Below are positions 2,735 through 10,111 of a stretch of DNA of 10,111 nt, piece by piece (within the stretch, counting starts at the first letter, position 1; every line of letters starts with the position of its first letter). Source of the stretch: Alphaproteobacteria bacterium (GTDB taxonomy: Bacteria; Pseudomonadota; Alphaproteobacteria; RF32; CAG-239); the NCBI GenBank assembly GCA_017645485.1, contig JAGCOI010000168.1, positions 1-10,111 of the forward strand. The letters are read 5' to 3'. Position numbers and translations under genes: made by a program. The notes under the pieces were generated by a model. That model had not been told where the DNA came from. It saw only the letters and a list, made by a program, of their open reading frames with translations, and ran no database searches.

Positions 2735-5700
2735 ATGGGCAATATGTCAAAGAAAATATTCGGATCAGTGGTTTTTGCTTTAGCGCTGTTTTGCTGCGCC
2801 AAAGTGGCTGTTACCGGTTTGACAACCGAGGAAAAATGTGAGGCATTGCCTGACTGTGAAGCGTTGGGGTATAAAAGAGGTAATACCGATTGTAATGAGT
2901 ATGAGCAAATCAGATGTCCGTATAATGCCGTATACAGCAAATGTGTGAATACGGATTGTGAAAAAATGGGCTTTTCCATCGGCGATAAATCCGCCTGGTG
3001 TAAGAAAGACAAAATTGTTTATTGTCCGACAGATGAAAATTATTCGCTTTGTCAGGAAGCTTGCGGTTTATGTAATCAGGGTGAAACGAATCCCGCTTGT
3101 CCTTACGGTATACAACAAATACAGGTGAAAAAAGACAGTACTTGTGAAACAGATTGCGAAACGGTCGGGTTGACCAATGATTGCGATCAGCCGTGTTATG
3201 AATGCAGAGTTTGTGAAGAAGATAAAAACAGCGGTTATATTGATGCCAAAGATCAATGCGAAGAAGATGAATATGTGGTCGGTGTTGTTAATCCGTCTTG
3301 TCCGGAAAATCTCGGTAAAGGTCAAAAATATTTGTGTAAGGTGTGTCCGGACGGTATGATTCCTGACGGGGATATGACTGACGGCAGCGATGGCAAGACA
3401 AGTTGTAAATGTGATGAAGAACATGGTTCTTATGCAAGATGTCCGACGGGTGCGGATTGTGATCGTGTGGATACATCAAGTGAATTTTCGGAATGCTATC
3501 GTCCTAAAATTGATGAAGATGAAGACGGCTGTGTTAACGGGGATAACAATCAAAAGGGCTATGTGAAATTTGTTGAGGATAATATGGATGATCACTTTGA
3601 ATATGCCAATGCCCCGGTTACGTTTATATTAAACGAAGACGGTAAAAATGTTGAAAACAAATGTGTTGAAGTTTTAGGTTGTAACAGCGAGGTTGAAGGA
3701 TCTACCCAAACGCCGAATTTTGATAACTATTTTGTAACGGATAACAGGCAATTAGGCGGTACGACATGTTCTTGGGTTTCGGGATGTAATACGGAAAATA
3801 CAAATATCAGAGAAGATAAATGTTCGACAGGGCGTGTGTTCAGCGAGGTTAAGGAAGCCGGTGGTCATAAGTGCGGTCAATGTTTGTGTGATATAGAAAG
3901 AGGTTATTATCCGAGTGCGCCGGACGGACGTATCAGTACAAGCGAAAAAATAGACGGTCAGGTTTGTTTTGTGGCAACGGCATGCGATGAAACACAAAAT
4001 TGGACGGCGGCATGGGAAGATGACCACTTTAATTATGACAAGAAAGATGAGGGCGACGGATTGTTGCCGGCTTGCCGCAAAATTTTGGGATGTAACGGGA
4101 ACAAAGATGCGGCAAACAGTGAGAATAAGTATGATGCGAACTATTTTTCCATTGTGGAAGTTTCAAATGCCAACACAACATGTTATTATGTAAACGGGTG
4201 TAAGGAAGGAAAGGTAACTTCATGTGATGCAAGTCAGGGTTTAAGATGGAAAAAGCTTTCAGCTACGTCTTCGGATTATAAAGAAGTTGCACAACTTAAT
4301 TTACGGTGCGGTACGTGCGAGTGCGATGTTTCGAGGGGCTATTATGCAAACGGATGCCCCGAAGGTGCCGTTTGTACGCAAGTCGGCGGATGTTATAAGG
4401 TTGAGGCAGATACTTGTGCCGAGGGTTATGTAAAGCCCGATGAAGCAGACAGTGTGCATTTTCAAATAGGTGTGGTCAAGAAGTTTACGGGCTCAGACGG
4501 AAACGAAGTTTCATGCCGAAAAGTTAACGGATGTAATTCAAATAAGGGGGCAACTGAAAATGCTGCGGATTTACAGGATGATTTGAAATATTTCGATGTT
4601 GCTTCCAAAACGCTCGGTACAAAGACATGTTATTGGCGCACCGGCTGCCGATATGTTGAAAAGGGCGGAGATTGCGGTGCAGGCTATCTTAAAGGAGAAT
4701 GCTCTGAAGGTAAAACAACGGATAATGCCCGATCAAAGGTATGCTGTTTATGTGCAACAGCGACCTGTGAGACAGGGACGAGTATTTATCCGGTTGAAAA
4801 GAAGACTTATCAATGCACAACCAGCGGGCAAAGCGGGGATAAACCTTGTTATGCCTGCACGTGTGCAAAAGATTATTGCGGCAGCGGATGTAATACGAAA
4901 TTAAGTGCGTGTGATGCAAATAAATATAAATACGATAAAGTTGCCAATGCCAAAATGGGCTCAAAATGCGAGACGATTTCTCGAAATGAAAATTACAGCT
5001 GTGTTTATGAAGGCGTTAAATATGACAGTTTTGAATGTAATGACGGATTTAAGAAAAACGGTAATGAATGCGTTGCCAAAACATGTGAGGAAGATTATGG
5101 CTTAAAATCCGCACCGTCAAGTGATGTGACGCAAACATCAAAAGGAACGATTGAAAAAATCGGCAATCGATTTGAGGTTTGTTATTCTTACCAAACGAAA
5201 GAATGCCAAGATTATTATATGCTTACGTTTGCAGAAAAAGAGGCGATTACAGACGACGGTATTCGGGCCAGATGCCAAGAGATAGATCCGGTTTCAGGTT
5301 TGCACTGTTACAGCTGCGAAAATAAGGGCGGTAGTCAATGTGTGTATAAATTTAAGGATGCAAACGGTCAGAATCAAACGCAGAATATGACGGTTAATAT
5401 TTGCGGTGATGAATATAAATATGAAGCGCAAGACGGTATGGTTTTGAGAACCGGGGACAGATGTATTAACGTTGTTAAAAGAGGCGGTGATTTGTGTGCC
5501 GTTAAGACGCTTTATAAGGACTTTGCGTGTAAAGACGGTTGGCAAATTCAAGAAGACAGTGAGGGTAATGCTCTCGGGTGCATACCGGTAACGTGCGAAA
5601 GCAAGAAAGAGACGGTTACAATCAATAATACGGATACGCAAGTGACCATGTCGGAAGCAGAGTGCGATACGGCGGGTTGGCGGACATGTGCCAGCAAAGA

Positions 5701-7588
5701 AATTTTGTGCGGGAATAATTCGTGTAAATGTTATTACGGTATTTTGAAAGATTGCACGGATTACGGTTATTTAAATCAGTGTGTGCCGGGCTTTAAATGC
5801 GAAGAAAAAGGCGTGAGAATCGGCGGTGAAATGAAGATTTGTTATGAAAAAGGCGTTGAAAGCACTTGTGAAGATTACGGTTATTTAGCAGAAGAAGATA
5901 AGACAGGCGGTAAGAAATGTACGACGATTCCGGGGCTTGCAAGCGGTGCAGATGCTCAAGGTAATACGCTTTTTAACTTAACATGTTACAGTTGCGGTTT
6001 TTGTGAGGCAAATCAATGCACAAAAGATGGCGGTACGGCTTGCGGGCAAACATTGGGCACATGCAAAAAAGTAGATGAGATTGATGTTTGTACATTTACG
6101 GCAACAAGCGGTTGCGGAACGGGCTTGTGGCGTTCGGCAGATACGGCTATTGAACACGGACACATGGATATAACAAACACATCTCCAGATGCATCTTGTG
6201 ATATTTGGAAAAAAGGCGCGGATGATGCCTGCCAAGTTGACAGATATTATAATAAAATTGTGTGCGATACATGTTACAGAGCAAATGAAGGGCAAACACA
6301 ATGTACGGCTTTAACGTGTCCGACAGGGTTGGTTGCGTATGAAAATATAACAGAGAATCAATTGAATCGGCGTGTTGTTGAGCGCGCAGATGTTGAGGAA
6401 AACGGAACAACATGTGCCAGATGTTATAGCGTTGGCGGTTGTGATAATGCCAAGGGTTATTACAGCAAAAATGCCTCGAATTTGTCCGGTCTTTTGAACG
6501 AAGGTTATCATTTGAAACAAGAGGGTGCTGAAGAATGTTTGAGGGTTGCTCAAAATTCGTGCCGTGCCTGCTTTAAGTGGGATGGTTTAACAAAAAGCTG
6601 TCGTCGAAAAACATGTGAAGACCTTAAATATACAGAAAATGGGAAAAATCGGACATATTTTTCGAAAGCTGAAGCAAGTGAGTGTTATAAATTTACGGAA
6701 CTCGGCAGCGGTACTAACACAACAATAGACGATGGATATGTGATTAGCGGGATAAGTGCGGCGGTTCAATGTTCTGAGCGGGTTGAAAACGGCGGTATCG
6801 GACTGACTTATTGCGTGAAGAAGGTTTGTGATGAATCAAATAAGATGTACAACACGGAACAAGCCTGTAACCAGAATAAGGTAAAATACGGCGTTAAGAG
6901 TTGTCGAAAGGCGACAGCTTTGGACGGATGTGATGATGATAATTTCCCTTGTTGGACGCCGAATTTCAGCGATCCGATTGTGTGCAATGATATTAAAGCC
7001 GTATCATCAAGCGAAGATTACGGCGATGGCGATGAACAGGTGTTTACAGCCGGATATAATTACCAAGCAAACGGCGCTAAAAATTTGGTTGAGCCGGGTA
7101 ACGATTTGCCCGGACATAAGTATGCAACACTTAACGTGATACTCGGCTTAACGGAACCCAATAAATTAGTCAAATCAAGCGATGTATATTCTTGTTTGCA
7201 ACCAACAGACCACACAGGTACGTGGCATAGTATAGATTCGGTGTGTTTTGAGGACGGCGGTTTATGTGTGGAGCCTGAAGATGACAGTATATGTAATGAA
7301 GATGCAAAGATAGACAATTACTGGTTTACCAACTTTACAGACGCCAAAAATTATATGGTCAATCAGTGCAGAGGCGGCACATTGCTTTTATATGAGGGTA
7401 AGGTAAGGTGTGAATGCGACAGATTGGATCGTGTTGATGTTACAAAATGCAGTGATGTTGAAACTCAATATTATCCGACAACTGCTAACCCGAGACAATG
7501 TTTGTATGACTTAGGTTGTGATACCGCAGCAGGATATTATAACAGTGAGTCTACATGTCTTGATAAAAATCCCGGGGTTTATGGGTGA
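2735..7588 (+). CDS. Giant cysteine-rich exported repeat protein, part before in-frame TGA
   Basis: A 1,617-residue product of unknown function. The ATG has a good Shine-Dalgarno AAGGGG (2721-2726) eight bases upstream; a second ATG at 2744 is further away. Residues 1-28 look like a Sec signal peptide: a basic start (MSKK), a hydrophobic core at about 9-20, and likely cleavage near AVTG/L. The CC at 21-22 is not a good lipobox. I count about 139 cysteines (8.6%), so the mature chain is probably an extracytoplasmic, disulfide-stabilised protein. Visible repeats are two C-E-x-x-G-[YF] units at residues 41-106, three tandem modules at 310-673, and a recurring C-x4-G-C motif, often followed by GYY. 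No enzyme motif or known domain was recognised. The frame stops at TGA but is open for 840 codons beyond it, so this is probably only the N-terminal two thirds of the original protein. A surface adhesin or envelope role is a guess. Confidence 0.9.
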   Translation: MGNMSKKIFGSVVFALALFCCAKVAVTGLTTEEKCEALPDCEALGYKRGNTDCNEYEQIRCPYNAVYSKCVNTDCEKMGFSIGDKSAWCKKDKIVYCPTDENYSLCQEACGLCNQGETNPACPYGIQQIQVKKDSTCETDCETVGLTNDCDQPCYECRVCEEDKNSGYIDAKDQCEEDEYVVGVVNPSCPENLGKGQKYLCKVCPDGMIPDGDMTDGSDGKTSCKCDEEHGSYARCPTGADCDRVDTSSEFSECYRPKIDEDEDGCVNGDNNQKGYVKFVEDNMDDHFEYANAPVTFILNEDGKNVENKCVEVLGCNSEVEGSTQTPNFDNYFVTDNRQLGGTTCSWVSGCNTENTNIREDKCSTGRVFSEVKEAGGHKCGQCLCDIERGYYPSAPDGRISTSEKIDGQVCFVATACDETQNWTAAWEDDHFNYDKKDEGDGLLPACRKILGCNGNKDAANSENKYDANYFSIVEVSNANTTCYYVNGCKEGKVTSCDASQGLRWKKLSATSSDYKEVAQLNLRCGTCECDVSRGYYANGCPEGAVCTQVGGCYKVEADTCAEGYVKPDEADSVHFQIGVVKKFTGSDGNEVSCRKVNGCNSNKGATENAADLQDDLKYFDVASKTLGTKTCYWRTGCRYVEKGGDCGAGYLKGECSEGKTTDNARSKVCCLCATATCETGTSIYPVEKKTYQCTTSGQSGDKPCYACTCAKDYCGSGCNTKLSACDANKYKYDKVANAKMGSKCETISRNENYSCVYEGVKYDSFECNDGFKKNGNECVAKTCEEDYGLKSAPSSDVTQTSKGTIEKIGNRFEVCYSYQTKECQDYYMLTFAEKEAITDDGIRARCQEIDPVSGLHCYSCENKGGSQCVYKFKDANGQNQTQNMTVNICGDEYKYEAQDGMVLRTGDRCINVVKRGGDLCAVKTLYKDFACKDGWQIQEDSEGNALGCIPVTCESKKETVTINNTDTQVTMSEAECDTAGWRTCASKEILCGNNSCKCYYGILKDCTDYGYLNQCVPGFKCEEKGVRIGGEMKICYEKGVESTCEDYGYLAEEDKTGGKKCTTIPGLASGADAQGNTLFNLTCYSCGFCEANQCTKDGGTACGQTLGTCKKVDEIDVCTFTATSGCGTGLWRSADTAIEHGHMDITNTSPDASCDIWKKGADDACQVDRYYNKIVCDTCYRANEGQTQCTALTCPTGLVAYENITENQLNRRVVERADVEENGTTCARCYSVGGCDNAKGYYSKNASNLSGLLNEGYHLKQEGAEECLRVAQNSCRACFKWDGLTKSCRRKTCEDLKYTENGKNRTYFSKAEASECYKFTELGSGTNTTIDDGYVISGISAAVQCSERVENGGIGLTYCVKKVCDESNKMYNTEQACNQNKVKYGVKSCRKATALDGCDDDNFPCWTPNFSDPIVCNDIKAVSSSEDYGDGDEQVFTAGYNYQANGAKNLVEPGNDLPGHKYATLNVILGLTEPNKLVKSSDVYSCLQPTDHTGTWHSIDSVCFEDGGLCVEPEDDSICNEDAKIDNYWFTNFTDAKNYMVNQCRGGTLLLYEGKVRCECDRLDRVDVTKCSDVETQYYPTTANPRQCLYDLGCDTAAGYYNSESTCLDKNPGVYG
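2855..3052 (+). repeat. N-terminal tandem protein repeat (two CEALGY/CEKMGF units)
   Basis: Within the giant protein, residues 41-70 and 75-106 align: C-E-x-x-G-[YF], then a Cys followed by P (C61, C97), then a closing Cys exactly nine residues later (C70, C106) preceded by Y-S. Related C-[ET]-x-x-G-[YFL] starts recur further on, including C-E-T-V-G-L, C-T-D-Y-G-Y, C-E-D-Y-G-Y and, beyond the stop codon, C-E-G-Y-G-Y. I have seen this style in large proteins of uncultured gut alphaproteobacteria, but cannot name a family. Confidence 0.7.
3662..4753 (+). repeat. Three tandem cysteine modules of the giant protein
   Basis: Three successive modules share one cysteine pattern: C-x4-G-C, about 30 residues containing an N-Y-F or K-Y-F, a second C-x4-G-C, then a Cys cluster. 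They span residues 310-385, 447-530 and 594-673. The first motifs read CVEVLGC, CRKILGC and CRKVNGC; the second read CSWVSGC, CYYVNGC and CYWRTGC; the closing clusters are CGQCLC, CGTCEC and CCLC. Linkers of 62 and 64 residues begin with D-x3-RGYY. The similarity is at protein level only; the DNA has diverged, so the duplications are old. Confidence 0.8.
7367..7417 (+). repeat. CxGG...CxC protein module, copy before the stop
   Basis: Residues 1545-1561, CRGGTLLLYEGKVRCEC, match CVGGDLWIENGYLVCNC encoded at 8450-8500: same length, same cysteine spacing (C-x13-C-x-C), and the same CxGGxL start. One copy lies on each side of the in-frame TGA. Confidence 0.75.
7586..7588 (+). other. In-frame TGA replacing a conserved cysteine codon
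   Basis: This is the only stop in a 2,459-codon frame. It falls at the first position of the recurrent C-x4-G-C motif: stop-L-E-V-N-G-C here, against CYYVNGC, CRKVNGC, CTQVGGC, CYSVGGC, CLYDLGC and others. A Cys codon (TGT or TGC) is one base away from TGA. TGG is used freely for Trp on both sides and no other TGA is in frame, so a general TGA-to-Trp code is unlikely. I saw no convincing hairpin close downstream that would act as a bacterial selenocysteine element. Confidence 0.85.
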
Positions 7589-10111
7589 TTAGAAGTTAAT
7601 GGTTGCTATATACGTGATTTAGATAAAAAAGTGACGTGCTGCTCGCCGGCAAACCCGAATTATCCGCACGAAGGGTTTACACATGAAGATCCTTGCGATA
7701 AAAAATTATTCGGTTGTTGGAGTACGCAAAAGAAAGTGATAAAGACTCTTAACAATAGTAACCAAACAGAGAATAGGACATGTTGGAAATGGGTTCAAAA
7801 TACCTGTGAAGGTTATGGTTATAAGGATACCACCGGTGATGGCGGCCGAGGTAGCTTGCAAACAGAAACTTATTATAATACTTATCAAAAATGTTATGAG
7901 TGGGCAGAAAGCGGCAATAATAGTTATACATTTTTGATTACAAGAGGTGATCCAAATACCGGTCAAGCAGTGGAGCCTTTGAAGTGTTATGATAACGCTA
8001 ACAATGCAAATAAGGCCTCATGCCCCAATAGGGGAGGTGCATTTGATAACAATACTGCAAGCGATTGTCAAAAAGGCAGAGGTACTAATGTTTCTGACGG
8101 TCAACATAACTGTTGCGAACAGGGTACTGCCGGTTGCGATGAGTCTTACAGTGCTTGTACCGGTGTTAAAACATGTTATATCATTGATAATCGTTACAGA
8201 TGCAAGGCTTCCAATAGATTCTATGAAAACTCTTCTTGGTCAGACGGTTCCCAGCCTTGGCACCCCACTTATTCTACCTATTACCACGTCGAGGATGGGT
8301 ATAAAGAAGTAAATCCCAGTTCCAATAACGGTTGTACCGAGGCTGAAGTTCCTCTCTATGCCTTTGGTGAAAACTTCGCTCCGGATTTCTATAGGTATGG
8401 TTTGTCGGGTACAACGGGTAGTCAGCTCTTTGATGAAATTTTAACATCTTGTGTCGGCGGTGACTTGTGGATTGAAAACGGTTATCTTGTTTGTAATTGT
8501 TCTAATGTTACCGCTTCTGTTACCGCTTCCGAACCAAAAGATAATTATTGCCCGAAATATCACAAGTGTGTGAAAAAAGACCCGGGTGATGACTGCTTTT
8601 TCGACGATGGTTGCGATGACAGAGGCTTAAATGGTGCTACTAAATATTATGATTCTCAAGGCGCTTGCCAATCAGATAATAATGGTGCCCTTTGCAAACA
8701 ACTCGATAATTCTTCCTGTTGGACCCGTTCAGGTTGCGGTATAGGTTATTATCCAGATCCCGCAACAGGTAGATGCTTGGTCAACACCTGTGAAAACTAC
8801 TCTAAAACTGCAGGAGCTGCTGCTACCCATGTTGAAAATGCTTATTACGGCGATTGGGAAGAAACATTATACTTTACTAACGAAATGGATCAATGCGGCT
8901 TGTTTAGAGAATACGAAATTGATATACCTGAAGGAACAGTGATATTTGCCAAAGGTGCGGGTAATGCCGCTTGTCCTGACGTCGGAGAATTTGCCGATGA
9001 CGGGACAGAAACCTGTTTAGCAGGGGAAAACAGACCGTATCATCCGAAAAAAGCCGGTAAGGGCGCTAAACAAAAGTGCCATACCATCAGCTATGGTGAT
9101 GATGCACCTTGCAGTAAATATGCTTATCATCTAAAATATTATGACTATTCTAATTACGACACTCAGGATTACTGGGTTGCATGGATGAGTGAAGATTGCA
9201 CATCTGCAACAGCATCAATCACTTGGGAACCAGAAGAAGACTATTATGAAAGTGATGGGCACGGCGGTCGTAAGACGCATTACATTGATTACGGATGTAA
9301 GAAAGGTTTGTTGGGCGAGCTTGGTGATGAGGATCCGGATGATGTGATATATATGCCTCTGGAAGAGTGGGAATTATATCTGCCAGGAGGGTGGGGATAT
9401 ATCAATTGTTATGATCAACCGAATAGTAAAAGATGTTATATTCGGAAACAATGTACACCAAGTGCCTGTCTCGGATTTCCGTATCGTGTAGGAAATGGCA
9501 GAAGCGTGAGCGGTGATATTACTTCTAATGCGACCAAGAGTGTTGTTTTAGGTCGAATCTTGGAGACAGGATATACCAACAGGAAGAGGGGAATAACAAA
9601 TAGATACTATTTTGGTACTTTATACAGTTATAAACCGAATGCGGATGGTGCGTATGATGTTAGAGGCAATTATAACCATTTAGGCAACGGTGTGTTTGAA
9701 ATTCATGATGCTATCGGCCAAGTTTGGGGCTATATTAACTTCGGCAGTACTGAAAACTATTCGCATTATGAAGATACGTTGAAATATTCTTCAGGTATGG
9801 AGACCGGCTATGGCGATATTTCTTGTGCAAATACAAGTGGTCCTGCTAATAGTGGCTTTACTAATGACAGAGTAACTTCTGTCGGGTGTTATGCGACGTA
9901 TTGGATCGACTCCCAAGGCGGTACTAACTGGAGCTATAATCCGGAATCAAATAACTGCAAATGTTGTGAAGTATTTAAGAATGAGACAAAGAAGAGACCT
10001 GTTACTTGCCCTTCCACTACTGTAGAACGGCTTTTCAAACAGTTTTGTGAAGGACAAACAGAGGAAAGTTGTGGCGGTATAACTACATCCAGTCAGTTTG
10101 ATATTTATGCA
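7589..10111 (+). CDS. Continuation of the giant cysteine-rich protein after the TGA, open at window end
   Basis: The same frame runs for 840 sense codons without another stop and is cut by the window edge, so the 3' end is unknown. It is clearly coding: about 50 cysteines, the shared motifs C-E-G-Y-G-Y (near 7807), CVGGDLWIENGYLVCNC (8450-8500) and CWTRSGC with GIGYY (8717-8755). No start is credible near the stop: the first in-frame ATG is at 8885, and a GTG at 7631 has no ribosome-binding site. It therefore depends on readthrough or is the silent 3' part of a broken gene. A 118-codon stretch (9470-9823) has no cysteine and may be a different domain. Use of ACT/ACC and TCT/TCC codons is roughly three times denser than before the stop. 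The function is unknown. Confidence 0.75.
8450..8500 (+). repeat. CxGG...CxC protein module, copy after the stop
   Basis: CVGGDLWIENGYLVCNC is the partner of the module at 7367-7417, with identical cysteine spacing. It ties the sequence after the TGA to the same protein family as the sequence before it. Directly downstream, two 12-bp units (GTTACCGCTTCT/C, 8507-8530) encode a short VTAS-VTAS tandem. Confidence 0.75.

Follow-up and report, generated by a model that had tools for sequence, protein, structure and literature searches.

What does a single in-frame TGA mean when it falls on a conserved cysteine of an otherwise open giant frame? An earlier note on the window studied here (the whole stretch of DNA that was analysed, 10,111 bases) had described a frame of 2,459 codons running from position 2735 to the window end with one stop, and had offered three readings: a freshly broken gene, an assembly error, or a UGA that is tolerated or recoded. 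Our recount gave exactly this frame (2735–10111, plus strand), with its single stop, TGA, at 7586–7588 as codon 1618. The window is the whole of one contig (G000:C246) in a 1.16 Mb, 251-contig, 92%-complete draft genome, and the giant frame is therefore ended by the contig end rather than by a stop codon. The features of the window are collected in Table 1.

Table 1. Features of the 10,111-base window
Feature	Position	Strand	Remarks
Histidine kinase gene, 3' part	1–1467
infA	1528–1749
Giant cysteine-rich protein gene, codons 1–1,617	2735–7585	+	92% identical to P0002, 48% to P0003, 95% to P0005
N-terminal cysteine-rich domain, two similar halves (by eye)	2825–3106	+	Common to genus and family paralogues; 15 invariant columns in 27 sequences; no convincing Pfam family
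Variable block B	4235–4834	+	About 66% identical to P0002, 84% to P0005; neighbouring blocks 92–100%
Variable block E, contains the TGA	7535–8030	+	Window 35–55% identical to P0002 and P0005; P0002 and P0005 84–100% identical to each other
In-frame TGA	7586–7588	+	Column is Cys in 3/3 uninterrupted homologues
Open continuation of the giant gene (841 codons), truncated at the contig end	7589–10111	+	62% identical to P0005 over 655 columns, 59% to P0002 over 468
Variable C-terminal region	8640–10111	+	To P0005, 82–90% as far as about 9088, about 40% as far as about 9538, 25% or less beyond; to P0002, 64%, falling to about 20%

The giant frame and its homologues

The TGA had been placed on the first cysteine of a repeated motif, C-x4-G-C. 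All nine upstream copies that the earlier note had listed were found (residues 310, 345, 447, 483, 547, 594, 632, 1230 and 1589), as was the copy past the stop (base 8717), together with a further one at base 8594; these 11 intact copies compare with a mean of 1.4 and a maximum of 6 in 500 residue shuffles. The N-terminus is hydrophobic and resembles a signal peptide by eye, and the giant protein is probably secreted and probably disulfide-rich. Cysteine accounts for 189 of the 2,459 codons, and 48–53% of the one-substitution routes to TGA in the frame start from Cys codons, so that a TGA falling on a cysteine is unsurprising.

With the upstream 1,617 residues as query, three proteins were recovered among 4,707 candidates: P0001, which is the window's own truncated protein, P0002 (2519 aa) and P0003 (2539 aa). 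A second query (residues 1560–2459, with X at the stop) recovered P0005 (2902 aa) and P0002 among 2,234 candidates. P0002, P0003 and P0005 run uninterrupted past the TGA position by 901, 908 and 1,288 residues, respectively, and all have Cys at its column, which bears out the earlier placement of the stop on a motif cysteine. Homologues that consistently end near the TGA had been named as the observation that would speak against an interruption, and none of the three does so. These continuations indicate that the giant gene goes on from 7589 to the window end. Since its homologues continue and its downstream part is homologous in the same frame, the gene as assembled is very probably interrupted by a premature stop. 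The C-terminal type of the window is partly common to P0005 (409 of 655 columns identical).

Further searches returned few relatives. Used alone, the 841-codon downstream part had no match among 4,969 candidates; the search took in only proteins whose length was 0.55 to 1.75 times that of the query, so full-length relatives could not surface. Against whole genomes, the same part matched one of 57, namely its own. No relatives were found in viral contigs, either with this part or with a P0002/P0003 alignment as query, and two queries against genome contigs gave 22 and 56 pattern matches, none of them a relative. Phages searched with the first 300 residues and plasmids searched with the 3' part likewise yielded no relative. 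No publication on the giant gene appeared among the matches listed in a literature search (titles and abstract starts). In the database, the truncated protein P0001 represents a cluster of five member sequences; these lie outside the set of proteins and genomes read, in which no other carrier of a stop at the TGA column was seen.

Upstream, all aligned cysteines are kept (139/139 against P0002 and 139/139 against P0005), and in 7589–8905 all 31 aligned P0002 cysteines are kept as well, though identity in 7589–8032 is only 53/131; this retention suggests that the 3' part had until recently been constrained as coding sequence. When the full downstream alignment is counted, with its unrelated C-terminus, 43/47 cysteines are kept with respect to P0005 and 36/50 with respect to P0002. 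Substitutions yield a stop in 5.6% of cases, so each 1% of neutral divergence over 841 codons should bring about 1.4 stops, and no second stop occurs in the 841 downstream codons. Thus either the TGA is a recent event or no real one, or translation of the frame continues.

Decoding of UGA

In selenoproteins, UGA is read as selenocysteine at Cys positions, and the giant gene resembles them in carrying one UGA in frame where its homologues have Cys. It differs from them in that a SelB match stays below the cut-off, no structure is found after the codon, and the surroundings are a repeated, structural-looking motif instead of a known redox site. The best match to the SelB model TIGR00475 reached 186.5 bits (cut-off 242.25), in an assembly whose 92% completeness makes absence no proof. 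No bacterial SECIS hairpin was apparent in the 60 bases from the UGA, which fold at −7.9 kcal/mol (z 0.07; 98 of 200 shuffles were as stable). Selenocysteine at the TGA was ruled against because of the sub-cut-off SelB and a downstream fold no better than chance. ARAGORN found no tRNA-Sec in the 30 loci scanned, which provide an incomplete tRNA set.

A reassigned UGA is made unlikely by an intact RF2 (prfB, 498 bits against a cut-off of 370) and by the use of TGA as a normal stop, which terminates 42 of 275 long ORFs in 120 of the genome's own contigs (574,575 bases). PMC13092985 describes bacterial reassignment of UGA to Trp as arising mostly via suppressor tRNAs and sometimes via a tRNA-Trp with an altered stem. 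None of the 21 tRNAs from the same 30 loci has a UCA anticodon, in a set that is incomplete and from which tRNA-Trp is also missing. The base after the TGA is T; according to PMC5289835, +4U lowers read-through in E. coli, an effect seen mainly for UAA.

We consider it hardly credible that the UGA is read through or recoded (as Cys, Trp or Sec) and that full-length protein is made. The frame does stay open past the TGA, cysteines are kept in 7589–8905 and the codon sits at a conserved Cys, but RF2 is present, TGA is a normal stop, SelB scores below its cut-off, no structure follows the codon and no UCA anticodon was read. The T after the TGA points the same way, with the proviso that its effect is mainly one on UAA, and the remaining lone stops of the draft genome, described below, are TAA. 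Of the three earlier readings, a broken gene and an assembly error therefore both stand, whereas a tolerated or recoded UGA gives way to RF2, the use of TGA as a stop, the SelB result, the lack of structure and the two TAA stops. In a frame this rich in cysteine, where about half of the one-step routes to TGA lead from Cys codons, a UGA that falls on a conserved cysteine, however striking, does not have to signify recoding, and the two conserved genes of this draft genome that each carry a lone TAA add to this caution.

Mosaic alleles and the N-terminal domain family

When compared in 50-codon blocks, the upstream part of the giant gene, except 4235–4834, is 88–100% identical to both P0002 and P0005. 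Identity to both sister alleles then drops from about 98% to about 40% in a second variable block (7535 to about 8030), and the TGA lies about 15 codons inside it. From about 8640, P0002 diverges from the window and P0005, and from about 9089 all three differ. The giant gene is mosaic: sharply bounded blocks of high or low identity alternate in the three alleles (window, P0002 and P0005), and each allele combines them differently. These combinations probably reflect recombination between strains, although a chimeric assembly of any of the three alleles could also give rise to them. Third-codon-position composition in 8033–8905 differs from that of the upstream part (p 2.7e-7; the lowest value in 27 upstream control windows was 0.087), which suggests that this segment is of other origin; 7589–8032 and 8906–10111 do not differ from the upstream part (p 0.84 and 0.26).

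Mosaic surface proteins diversify by recombination between alleles. The giant gene is like them in its sharp identity blocks, differently combined among three alleles, and unlike them in that no Pfam, NCBIfam or PHROGs family matches the giant protein, for which a surface location and a recombination mechanism are putative. Exchange of variable segments between strains, with stop-bearing segments in the pool, could in principle switch the product between a short form of 1,617 residues and long forms with different C-terminal regions, but we regard such a switch as improbable.

The N-terminal domain recurs in paralogues: 11 of 38 genomes, its own included, match P0003, and 29 of 152 genomes of the bacterial family match P0002, with only two candidates scored for most genomes. 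Among the 30 and 49 matches listed, the window's is the only one with an internal stop, and most of the others cover little beyond the N-terminal domain, so that hardly anything follows for the remainder of those genes. Nine of the 15 positions that are invariant in 27 copies of the domain are Cys. Paralogue lengths lie between about 100 residues and at least 1,560, a contig end truncating the longest, and there is no universal C-terminus, although several in one genome (G014) share one. By this account the cysteine-rich domain heads many presumably secreted proteins in both genus and family, standing by itself or followed by C-termini of various kinds. One TAA-ended paralogue (L121) is followed by a long open frame, which by eye encodes an unrelated protein.

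Database searches placed neither the giant protein nor its domain. Pfam gave nothing for the upstream half and one sub-cut-off match for the downstream half (E 0.065), and NCBIfam and PHROGs gave none for either half at E 0.1. Pfam matches to the 27 domain copies were scattered (best E 0.012). The predicted structure of the domain has a mean pLDDT of 74 and a pTM of 0.43, and its model matched no PDB fold at E 0.001; a profile of the domain matched PDB sequences only at chance level, to fibronectin (E 0.33 and 0.88). The lasting interest of the locus lies in this uncharacterised family of giant, mosaic, presumably secreted cysteine-rich proteins, whose N-terminal domain recurs within the bacterial family, and the mosaic structure of the giant gene, more than the TGA, is the part worth following.

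Lone stops in the draft genome and the origin of the TGA

Same-frame neighbours without a nearby ATG were sought in 120 contigs and the window, which gave 15 candidates, two of them on the minus strand of the window. Three were kept as true interruptions, namely the window TGA, a J-domain gene and sufD, and the rest were set aside by eye; these look like gene boundaries or chance frames, except for two in one locus (L155, G000:C38). There, at about 2715 on the plus strand, TAG closes a diguanylate cyclase frame, and directly behind it, in the same frame, comes an RlmD-like frame without roughly the first 79 profile positions. This could be a gene boundary or a further break; an additional candidate stop pair lies on the minus strand of the same locus, outside the three kept. 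An earlier screen by codon score was dropped, as it had listed three candidates, none of them among the three interruptions kept.

The J-domain gene (G000:C26, L085:7274–8449, minus strand) has one in-frame TAA after codon 179. Of 10 relatives in the genus, 8 match, all eight with open frames of 310–406 aa, and the five of these that were aligned read through. In sufD (G000:C37, L154:2693–3940, plus strand), one in-frame TAA separates profile positions 2–80 from 84–273; 9 of 10 relatives match strongly, seven with frames of 405–423 aa and two beginning at contig ends. Because both genes carry TAA where their relatives are open, lone nonsense codons are a trait of this assembly and not of UGA. 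For the stop in sufD, a consensus error would be a more natural account than a biological cause. If all three stops were errors, the implied substitution error rate would be about 1 in 10,000 bases, an estimate that takes most of 585 kb as coding. Spurious internal stops in assemblies are documented in PMC11017572, and the giant gene shares with single-substitution nonsense pseudogenes and such assembly stops, as treated there, one in-frame stop, an otherwise intact frame and uninterrupted relatives.

The TGA is thus very probably an ordinary premature stop, with no decoding of the codon, consensus error and recent nonsense allele being counted together. In this case, one substitution could have made a TGA in a gene that normally encodes a protein of about 2,500–2,900 residues; ribosomes would be expected to terminate there via RF2 and release an N-terminal product of 1,617 residues, with the 3' part past the TGA left untranslated. 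Some observations fit less well: the segment with the TGA differs from both sister alleles and no close copy of this exact segment was seen, cysteine retention downstream is incomplete, and tRNA-Trp is absent from the 21 tRNAs, although that set is incomplete. A division into two genes, the first ending naturally at 7588 and the second beginning just after, is very unlikely. A GTG at 7631 could open a frame of 827 codons, but by eye no clear ribosome-binding site precedes it and no signal-peptide-like stretch follows it, the first in-frame ATG comes only 432 codons on, and all three homologues run through. The separate downstream start that the earlier note had set against an interruption is accordingly not to be seen in any good form.

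Between the two origins of a premature stop, we give about an even chance to an erroneous base in the consensus sequence of the fragmented draft assembly and slightly favour it over a real allele; it would become unlikely if the five members of the P0001 cluster were independent samples that share the stop. A real, recent nonsense allele, possibly created when recombination brought in a stop-bearing segment, would mean that the strain makes the truncated 1,617-residue protein, and this falls a little short of an even chance. It would fit the position of the TGA, which comes just past the point where both sister alleles cease to match closely. It would also fit a paralogue from another genus (G014:C36, L029) that by eye seems broken by an in-frame TAA, and the wide range of paralogue lengths with no C-terminus common to all, which suggests that a short form may be tolerated. 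Against it, the two further lone stops, one of them in sufD, make a general problem of consensus quality plausible, and the TGA has no other carrier among the proteins and genomes read, the P0001 cluster members lying outside these.

Rfam gave nothing at gathering score in the window. Between infA and the giant gene, the stretch 1902–2463 holds direct repeats: a 126-nt unit occurs three times, twice in identical form and once at 66%, and a 53-nt unit forms a pair at 91%. Among 60 other contigs, 2 carry a short core of these repeats, on the opposite strand.
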